From the NCBI RefSeq assembly GCF_009856825.1, contig NZ_WVTD01000006.1, forward strand, positions 124,001 through 188,000: DNA of 64,000 bases, written 5' to 3'. The position numbers were made by a program, and so were the translations under genes. Positions 1 to 1,441 of this stretch are shown piece after piece. A model generated the notes under the pieces. That model was not told the origin of the DNA. It ran no database searches and worked only from the letters and a program-made list of their open reading frames with translations. The stretch's first letter is position 1, and the number at the start of each line of letters is the position of its first letter. Source of the DNA: Novosphingobium silvae. Lineage in GTDB: Bacteria; Pseudomonadota; Alphaproteobacteria; Sphingomonadales; Sphingomonadaceae.

Positions 1-441
1 TCAGTCTCCGTAATCATTTTTCACGCGGAGGCGCGGAGACGCGGAGCGGCCTGCGGCCGGTTCATACCCGTTGACGACGCGCCGGATACCGCTCTTCATG
101 GTCTCGCCACCAAAGTTCAGCAGCAGCCCTACGGGCTGATTGAGCAAACGCAAGTAAGTGAGCAACTGCTTGCCATGGACGCGGGTCAGCTGCTCGACGG
201 ACTTTATCTCGACGACCAGCCGATCATCGACGATCAGATCGGCGCGGAAGGCAGCCGGGAAGTGCAGACCTTCGAACGTGATGGCGACCGGCTTCTGCCG
301 GTCAGCCTTCCATCCCGCCCGCTCAAGGCTCGCGGCAAGCACGGTTTCATAGACGCTTTCCAAAAGGCCCGGCCCGAGGTCTCGATGGATGCGCAAGGCT
401 GCATCGACGACCTCGGCGCTCAAACGATCGATCTCGGCCAT
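1..441 (-). CDS. GxxExxY family protein
   Basis: This 146-residue protein belongs to the GxxExxY family, whose biochemical function is not established; a nuclease-like fold has been suggested for the family. The signature reads GLLESVY near residues 25-31, after the usual opening that leads into RIHRDLGPG. A later DLIVDDRLVVEIKSV stretch resembles the D...ExK core of PD-(D/E)XK enzymes, which is inference. The gene is complete, because its TGA falls exactly at the window edge. A GGAGAGAAG sequence before the ATG is a good ribosome site and lies partly inside a flanking 25-bp repeat. Its last residues are encoded by the matching inverted copy. Family assignment is secure; function is not. Confidence 0.9.
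   Translation of the reverse strand: MAEIDRLSAEVVDAALRIHRDLGPGLLESVYETVLAASLERAGWKADRQKPVAITFEGLHFPAAFRADLIVDDRLVVEIKSVEQLTRVHGKQLLTYLRLLNQPVGLLLNFGGETMKSGIRRVVNGYEPAAGRSASPRLRVKNDYGD
22..46 (+). repeat. 25-bp inverted repeat, copy A
   Basis: The repeat consists of CA followed by three CGCGGAG units separated by single G and A bases. It is a perfect inverted match to 447-471. This copy lies inside the 3' end of the GxxExxY gene and encodes the residues just before its C-terminal KNDYGD. Confidence 0.9.
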
Positions 442-446
442 CTTCT

Positions 447-471
447 CTCCGCGTCTCCGCGCCTCCGCGTG
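447..471 (-). repeat. 25-bp inverted repeat, copy B
   Basis: Perfect reverse complement of 22-46. It ends five bases before the GxxExxY start codon on the minus strand, so its terminal GGAG forms part of that gene's ribosome binding site. The two copies bracket the gene almost exactly. Confidence 0.9.
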
Positions 472-505: not shown

Positions 506-1441
506 TCAAAGGGTTTTAACCAGCTCCTCGATCTCGGCCATGGTCGAGGCGGAGGTCACTTCCACTTCGCCGGCCGAGCGCTTGATCATCGGGCCAACGA
601 CCTTGCCGCCCAGTTCCACGAAGCGCTCGACGCCGGCGGCGTGCATGGCGATGGCGCTCTCGCGCCAGCGGACGCGGCCGGTGACCTGTTCGACCAGCAG
701 GCGCTGGACCTCGGATGGGTCGGTGACCACCGATGCGGTCACGTTGGCGAAAAGCGCAACCCGCAGCGGTCCCGGAGGCGTTGCGGCCAGCGCCTCTGCC
801 ATGGCATCGGCGGCGGGCTGCATGAGCGGGCAGTGGAACGGCGCGGAGACAGGAAGCGCGATGCCGCGCTTGATGCCGTGATCCTTGACGAGCGCGATTG
901 CCCGCTCGATCGCTTCCTTGTGGCCGGACAGCACGACCTGCGTGGGATCGTTGTCGTTGGCGACGGTGCAGACCTGGCCTTCCGCGGCTGCCTGCGCCAG
1001 CGCGCTCGCCTTCTCAATGTCGGCGCCGAGCAGCGCGGCCATGGAGCCCACGCCCACCGGCACGGCGGCCTGCATCGATTCGCCGCGAAGCTTGAGAAGG
1101 CGCGCGGTGTCGGCCAGGCTGAAGGCGCCTGCGGCACACAGCGCGGTATATTCGCCCAGCGAGTGACCGGCGACGTAGTCCGCCTTGTCGGCCAGCGAGA
1201 TGCCGCCCTCCTTCTCCAGCACGCGCAGCACCGCAATGGCGTGCGCCATGATCGCGGGCTGGGCGTTGGCGGTGAGCGTCAGCTCGTCTTCGGGGCCCTG
1301 CGTCATGATGCGGAAGAGATGCTGGCCGAGCGCTTCGTCAACCTCCTGGAAAACCTCGCGAGCGACGGCGCTCGCCTCTGCGAGTTCGGCGCCCATGCCG
1401 ACCTTCTGGCTGCCCTGTCCCGGGAAAACGAATGCACGCAT
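506..1441 (-). CDS. fabD: Malonyl-CoA:ACP transacylase FabD
   Basis: FabD transfers malonyl groups from CoA to acyl carrier protein to supply type II fatty-acid synthesis in the cytoplasm. The 311-residue protein starts with the typical RAFVFPGQGSQ (GQGSQ at 8-12). The nucleophile elbow GHSLGE places the catalytic serine at about 95, and the catalytic histidine is in APFHCPLM at about 203. The frame stays open far upstream, but this ATG follows AAGGACGG at a sensible distance and matches the family N-terminus. In many relatives fabG follows fabD directly; here the next gene is the GxxExxY cassette, which may have separated the pair. Confidence 0.97.
   Translation of the reverse strand: MRAFVFPGQGSQKVGMGAELAEASAVAREVFQEVDEALGQHLFRIMTQGPEDELTLTANAQPAIMAHAIAVLRVLEKEGGISLADKADYVAGHSLGEYTALCAAGAFSLADTARLLKLRGESMQAAVPVGVGSMAALLGADIEKASALAQAAAEGQVCTVANDNDPTQVVLSGHKEAIERAIALVKDHGIKRGIALPVSAPFHCPLMQPAADAMAEALAATPPGPLRVALFANVTASVVTDPSEVQRLLVEQVTGRVRWRESAIAMHAAGVERFVELGGKVVGPMIKRSAGEVEVTSASTMAEIEELVKTL

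Follow-up and report, generated by a model that had tools for sequence, protein, structure and literature searches.

Gene-bracketing heptamer repeats that are also scattered without their gene point to an overlooked repeat family tied to its own nuclease

Introduction

Next to fabD in Novosphingobium silvae lies a short gene of the GxxExxY family, whose proteins have, to our knowledge, no settled function, and the gene is marked at both ends by the same repeat in opposite orientations. This raises the question of what kind of unit the repeats define, and whether that unit moves. A preliminary description, made from the letters of the window (the whole stretch of 64,000 nucleotides that was analysed), had read it as a minimal mobile or retro-inserted cassette lying where fabG would be expected. 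We compared the locus with its counterparts in the genus, in the family and in many other phyla, and examined the genomes for copies of the repeat that stand without the gene.

Results

The cassette beside fabD

The two arms are 25 nt each and 100% complementary, with 400 nt between them (Table 1), which confirmed the exact match noted in the preliminary description. They form the sole perfect inverted repeat of at least 20 bp within 1 kb in the window, and among 20 dinucleotide-shuffled windows a single seed, of 16 bp, turned up; the pair is not a chance expectation. Each arm consists of CA followed by three CGCGGAG heptamers that are separated by a single G and a single A, in agreement with the make-up already reported. 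The reported bracketing of one gene stands insofar as both arms mark the gene, but the arm at the 3' end is part of the coding sequence, because the GxxExxY reading frame spans 441 to 1 on the minus strand. The leader arm ends 5 bp ahead of the ATG. The cassette has not displaced fabG, as had been supposed, since the likely ATG of fabG lies 1 bp beyond the GxxExxY stop, just past the window edge.

Table 1. Coordinates of the cassette and its neighbour in the window
Feature	Positions	Strand	Basis
GxxExxY gene, 146 aa, PDDEXK_3 nuclease	1..441	-	profile matches; stop at 3-1
3'-end arm, three CGCGGAG heptamers on the + strand, within the ORF	22..46	+	inverted-repeat search
5'-end arm, the GxxExxY leader, exact inverted copy of 22-46	447..471	-	inverted-repeat search
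fabD, upstream neighbour of GxxExxY	506..1441	-	

The GxxExxY protein

The window protein belongs to the GxxExxY family, matching TIGR04256 with 127.3 bits (cut-off 35; E = 3.5e-37), and it also matched PF13366 (PDDEXK_3) with 125.1 bits (cut-off 22; E = 2.4e-36). Nothing besides PF13366 was matched in Pfam-A at E ≤ 0.001, and thus no recognised transposase of the DDE, HUH, serine or tyrosine type. E28, D68, E78, K80 and Q92 are invariant among 50 aligned GxxExxY sequences, and Y96 is nearly so. The AlphaFold model (pLDDT 88.7, pTM 0.81) had as its top PDB match 4ic1 SSO0001, a Cas4 (Foldseek E = 4e-4, TM 0.45); VIA-align gave Z 9.7 over 108 aligned residues with a large rmsd of 7.6. The next matches were other nucleases of the superfamily, including a Holliday-junction resolvase (Z 7.1) and a Cas4 (Z 6.6), although a Z below 8 may reflect just a common structural arrangement. 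A search by sequence found no solved homologue at E up to 10. D68 and E78-x-K80 in the modelled fold place the protein in the PD-(D/E)XK superfamily, and the conserved positions match the E, D, ExK and QxxxY motifs of Cas4/RecB-type nucleases. The protein thus models as a Cas4/RecB-like nuclease, whose activity is predicted. Residues 130-142 and 144-146 have pLDDT below 50, so the C-terminal end is disordered in the model.

GxxExxY is widespread, with at least 582 confirmed candidate stretches. Among eight gene pairs dN was 0.06-0.18. One pair was saturated for dS; in the other seven dS could be computed, at 0.5-2.1, and dN was the lower of the two in each. Judged from these comparisons of codons, the fabD-fabG copies are under purifying selection.

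Matched arms at GxxExxY loci

A PF13366 gene was present in 25 of the 149 genomes of the family, at 39 loci, with several genes in some genomes (eight in G108, four in G104). Matched inverted arms (IR score ≥16) were found at 33 of these loci; the six below the threshold were L013, L020, L022, L023, L031 and L044, of which L023 lies at a contig end, L031 has a weak match, and L044 falls outside the search frame, with heptamers on both sides. The same threshold was reached at 53/80 loci in named genomes of many phyla, in comparison with 0/216 shifted windows and 18/240 mispaired arms. The other 27 loci had no clear arm pair, some of them lying at the end of a contig or beyond the frame that was searched. 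The proposal of a repeat-defined unit around GxxExxY was right, and the arrangement is more general than proposed.

The arms have a consensus of about TC(A/G)C followed by CRCNRAG heptamers at an 8-bp pitch. The heptamer varies among loci (CGCGGAG, CGCAAAG, CACAGAG, CACGAAG, CGCTAAG and others), and both arms of one locus co-vary. In 54 of 89 armed loci the reading frame terminates ahead of the downstream arm; in 6 its stop codon falls within that arm, and in 29 past it. In these 89 loci the 5' arm ends 59-151 nt, mostly 63-90 nt, upstream of the GPG motif; the ATG in the window is 66 nt upstream of GPG. No known RNA family was matched in Rfam at gathering thresholds (seven loci).

The two arms of a fabD-fabG locus resemble each other more than they resemble arms elsewhere: identity was 0.91 within loci and 0.73 between loci (0/20,000 permutations) for the 24 of 33 loci used, L022, which has no arms, and eight loci whose anchor was missed by the pattern being excluded. 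Among seven locus pairs there were 23 differences in the left arm, of which 15 were mirrored in the right arm, 7 were on the left only and 1 was of another kind; 9 of the 15 mirrored changes come from one pair sharing an extra base, and the seven pairs are what remained of 14 chosen after 7 were skipped, not every pair being sisters in the tree. Irregular features were common to both arms in L111, L206 and L207, and both arms of L117 carry altered heptamers. The arms of the window and of G184 are identical over 25 bp despite a gene dS of 0.93, which shows that the arms are conserved at shorter distance.

Gene-less copies in the genome and the history of the junction

At up to three mismatches the 25-mer occurs at six places in the genome of the window, with 0 for the reversed control; the other copies for which the preliminary description had proposed a search do exist. 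The cassette accounts for two of the six places, and the two ends of a 141-bp inverted pair without a gene, on contig 19, are two more. Of the remaining places, the one on contig 22 belongs to a related pair as one of its ends, and the one on contig 43 stands alone. Two further related copies, on contig 1 (with decayed arms) and contig 11, came from a DNA search. The genome thus has four related gene-less elements (contigs 19, 22, 1 and 11), whose interiors align. The genes flanking the contig 22 site are 50-216 nt apart in seven relatives and about 1 kb apart in this genome, but G176, G178, G184, G150, G200, G204 and G206 have gaps of their own of 0.8-5.8 kb, and therefore the absence of this element is supported there rather than a clean empty site. 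The PF13366 gene is single-copy in this genome, and the sole PF01797 match lies on a different contig (C13). It looks as if the repeat without the gene, rather than the whole cassette, has been multiplied. The anatomy of the cassette offers no sign of the retro step that had been suggested.

The preliminary description had also named what would count against it, namely a repeat occurring nowhere else and a gene at this place in all relatives, including those lacking the repeats. The repeat is found elsewhere, and 32 of the 33 fabD-fabG copies keep arms of score ≥12, the exception being L022. A comparison of this junction across relatives for an empty site had been proposed, and the cassette is missing from many. 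A search of 59 genomes of the genus found fabD in 55. Of the 50 fabD-fabG junctions inspected, 6 held the cassette, 3 held remnants, 40 were without it and 1 was undecided; at L208 there was no fabG within 1 kb of fabD. In five species of the genus (L193-L197) other inserts lie at this place, with 650-780 bp from fabD to fabG, which indicates that the junction tolerates insertions.

By motif, 28 fetched loci have fabD and/or fabG adjoining GxxExxY; five more from the genus gave 33 rows. All 33 fell in one 40-row clade (SH-aLRT 98) of a tree of 122 rows, and the tree needs at least five changes of site label. One of the loci of sphingomonad-type fabD-GxxExxY-fabG order, L106, is in a record titled Arthrobacter sp. 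TPD3018, a title that is probably wrong. The distances of GxxExxY and of fabD were correlated (Mantel rho 0.455, 0/5000 permutations, 29 loci), a result compatible with either vertical descent or transfer of both together.

If the unit were an autonomous minimal transposon, the nuclease would act as transposase, arm, gene and arm would jump together, and the gene-less elements would be non-autonomous copies. The bracketing of the gene by arms agrees with this, as do the several genes in G108 and G104, the seven further members of the clade, which by the motif test lie away from fabD and fabG and have matched arms, and the junction in G054, where the cassette fills about 480-500 nt at a place that measures 15-36 nt, from matched flank to matched flank, in four relatives. 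No target-site duplication was visible at the ends of the G054 element or in comparison with the empty junctions, where the sequence between the genes has diverged too far for the exact junction to be placed. At the site of a gene-less element elsewhere in G054, the congener G130 is about 205 nt shorter, with flanks that align too poorly to fix the ends. The single gene copy of the window's genome, the co-variation with fabD and the scatter of the G108 copies, which are mostly far apart in the tree with only L039 and L042 as sisters, speak against a jumping unit. GxxExxY is rare in plasmids (8/72,556 records) and was found in none of 50,697 phage records. The best plasmid match, H1, is a replicon of 880 kb; it carries genes for ribosomal proteins, and its gene order is fabD-GxxExxY-fabG. 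We consider a transposon of this kind unlikely, and the minimal mobile cassette of the preliminary description was not borne out: the gene is single-copy, and the copies at the fabD site belong to one clade.

Repeat load follows the nuclease gene

The heptamer triplet gave 606 matches in 35 of the 149 family genomes, in comparison with 11 for the reversed control; G108, with its eight genes, had 170 of them. A slightly wider heptamer pattern was present in 44 of 50 genomes of other groups, and at least 10 times in 34 (the gene's own arms included), a count that covers gene-bearing genomes only; the reversed control gave 0 in 37 of these genomes and at most 11.

In the family, at least five triplet matches beyond two per gene copy were found in 12/25 genomes with PF13366 and 7/124 without (p = 8.6e-7), and at least one such match in 16/25 and 15/124, respectively (p = 1.8e-7), by Fisher tests on one genome per species in which shared ancestry is not removed and the two matches per gene copy were subtracted from the total by hand. 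Exceptions occur on both sides: 5/25 gene-bearing genomes had no triplet match, and 15/124 gene-free genomes had some.

The class of the repeats follows the gene as well. In eight one-gene genomes the repeats had a mean identity of 0.92 to the arms of their own gene, in comparison with 0.82 when permuted (p = 5e-5), and a genome's own arms were the best match to its repeats in 6/8 and the second best in G079 and G084. These are 8 of the 25 gene-bearing genomes, G027 being excluded for a gene without matched arms and the remaining genomes for several genes or few matches. In G042 and G122, which belong to one genus, gene arms and repeats differ in step, 10 repeats of G122 among the matches listed being used.

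Another enzyme, such as a RAYT/Y1 transposase or that of an insertion sequence, might move the repeats, with GxxExxY as a passenger caught between two of them. Y1_Tnp, present in 25/149 family genomes and the only transposase family compared, does overlap with repeat-rich genomes overall (7/25 versus 12/124, p = 0.02), repeat-rich genomes without PF13366 occur, and heptamer pairs are also found within other palindromes. However, the Y1 association is absent among genomes without the nuclease gene (1/17 versus 6/107, p = 1), whereas the association with the nuclease gene persists among genomes without Y1 (6/17 versus 6/107, p = 0.0015), and six genomes (G042, G054, G066, G079, G089 and G104) have gene and repeats with no Y1_Tnp match. 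A passenger would also leave unexplained why arms and repeats match in class and why a single protein family lies between the arms across phyla. A RAYT as driver is accordingly not favoured, and we think it improbable that any other mover accounts for the repeats. The repeat load follows GxxExxY rather than Y1/RAYT transposases.

Anatomy of the gene-less elements

The fetched loci contained 96 distinct inverted pairs, whose spacers cluster near 20-24 and 90-99 bp. The longer elements mostly have small internal hairpins, for example GCGGCGAAGCCGC in sphingomonads and another sequence in Flavobacterium rivuli. The idea that gene-less elements arose from the gene by internal deletion was rejected, since five interiors compared with the genes gave one 20-bp match at E = 0.009. 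That the arms merely serve the gene, by folding, in mRNA or DNA, into a hairpin that masks the start site or is bound by the protein for autoregulation, with the dispersed copies as by-products, is very unlikely: the 5' arm is near the start codon and both arms are able to pair and change together, but the gene-less pairs are far more numerous than the genes, fall into size classes and, apart from that 20-bp match, have interiors without similarity to a GxxExxY gene.

Some elements have a further layer. In Flavobacterium rivuli (G250), the gene-less copies L310, L312, L314, L317, L318, L320 and L321 have about 45 bp of outer flank in common, and in L317, L318, L320 and L321 there is an outer pair like ATACCATTTATGAATA; the element there may be longer and enclose the heptamers, because the copies share these 45 bp outside the arms. 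In G108, the short heptamer pairs of L078, L080, L099 and L102 are enclosed by GTCGGCCCCGC-type palindromes that form a larger inverted pair. In L299, L302, L305 and L306 (G066) and on contigs 6, 7 and 10 of G104, a heptamer pair of one class is nested symmetrically in a pair of another class, which looks like one element in the loop of another. A preference for hairpin loops was considered and rejected: outer palindromes surround 4/9 elements in G108 and 6/13 in G066, and mispaired controls gave 22/72 and 50/156; the outer palindromes are themselves repetitive, which is why the controls score as well.

In G001 and G095, which are congeneric and neither of which has PF13366, most triplets run in the opposite polarity, with the reverse copy first and the forward copy about 40 bp away. 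G069, G072 and G094 have 10-24 triplets and no PF13366 match, and may hold orphan repeat populations or a diverged enzyme.

Discussion

The reading we favour, and hold to be rather probable, is that the locus is arranged like a REPIN/RAYT system with a PD-(D/E)XK nuclease as its enzyme; on this reading the unit of the window is an old, largely co-inherited fabD-fabG cassette and one member of an arrangement that spans phyla. Repeats that bracket a gene and are also scattered without it point to an overlooked repeat family tied to its own nuclease.

How such a family might work can be sketched from the association, the class matching and the fold, from which we infer that the nuclease acts on the repeats. 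GxxExxY would be a minimal Cas4/RecB-like nuclease, and the heptamer array found in its own arms would be its cognate DNA. Being inverted, a pair of these arrays could fold into a hairpin, and the gene-less arrays, with spacers mostly near 20-24 or 90-99 bp, would be REPIN-like elements spread through genomes. The nuclease may bind or cut the arrays, possibly in the form of cruciforms or single-strand hairpins; the gene-less elements would be multiplied by the repair or copying that ensues, and hairpin-templated correction would keep arm pairs alike. More tentatively, we suggest a resident repeat system in many phyla, in which a lone PD-(D/E)XK nuclease recognises class-specific heptamer hairpins and copies them around the chromosome without a known transposase, the arms being kept alike by hairpin-templated correction. 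If that were true, it would be the first function for the GxxExxY family and would account for heptamer palindromes across many bacterial phyla. The consistent physical and evolutionary tie to a repeat class offers a testable substrate for GxxExxY proteins, and should the nuclease prove to drive these repeats, domestication of repeats would have originated on a fold unrelated to that of the RAYTs, with a PD-(D/E)XK protein in the role of the transposase. We found no nuclease-linked repeat system of this kind in searches of the openly licensed PMC literature.

Comparison with known systems

The GxxExxY protein resembles Cas4/RecB nucleases in its model, which matches 4ic1 SSO0001 and the Cas4 4r5q, and in its E, D, ExK and QxxxY positions, but it is much shorter and standalone, with no CRISPR or helicase partner adjoining in the window. 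GxxExxY loci have, as insertion sequences do, terminal inverted repeats around an enzyme gene; the recognised transposase is lacking, PF13366 being the only match. The gene-less elements are like bacterial MITEs in being short, with inverted ends and, in several copies, related interiors. They differ from MITEs in having no visible target-site duplication or identified DDE parent, and in arms that are closer within one element than between elements of different loci.

TIRtrons, as presented in the excerpts of PMC3733652, likewise have long terminal inverted repeats on the gene, some of which are repeated in the genome, and arms that may overlap the gene. Their TIRYT enzymes are tyrosine transposases, and a nuclease partner is not described in those excerpts. 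The CGTC REPs, which the same excerpts describe without a dedicated transposase and place in Sphingomonads, are resembled by the palindromes around the G108 heptamer pairs.

The closest likeness is to REPIN/RAYT systems. According to the portions of PMC3116915 and PMC8049555 that bear on these points, such systems have dispersed gene-less inverted pairs related to the repeats beside the gene, as found here, each enzyme gene has a different repeat class beside it, the enzyme is largely single-copy and vertically inherited and is not seen on plasmids, and the repeats are commoner where the enzyme gene is present. In contrast, the GxxExxY enzyme is a PD-(D/E)XK nuclease (PF13366) and not an HUH/Y1 tyrosine transposase; its repeats are tandem heptamers at an 8-bp pitch, which start with TC(A/G)C and have no GTAG (or CGTC) tag; and its arms overlap the ends of the gene. 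The GxxExxY system appears to work like REPIN/RAYT but is not a member of it, because its enzyme and repeat tag are not those by which membership is recognised.
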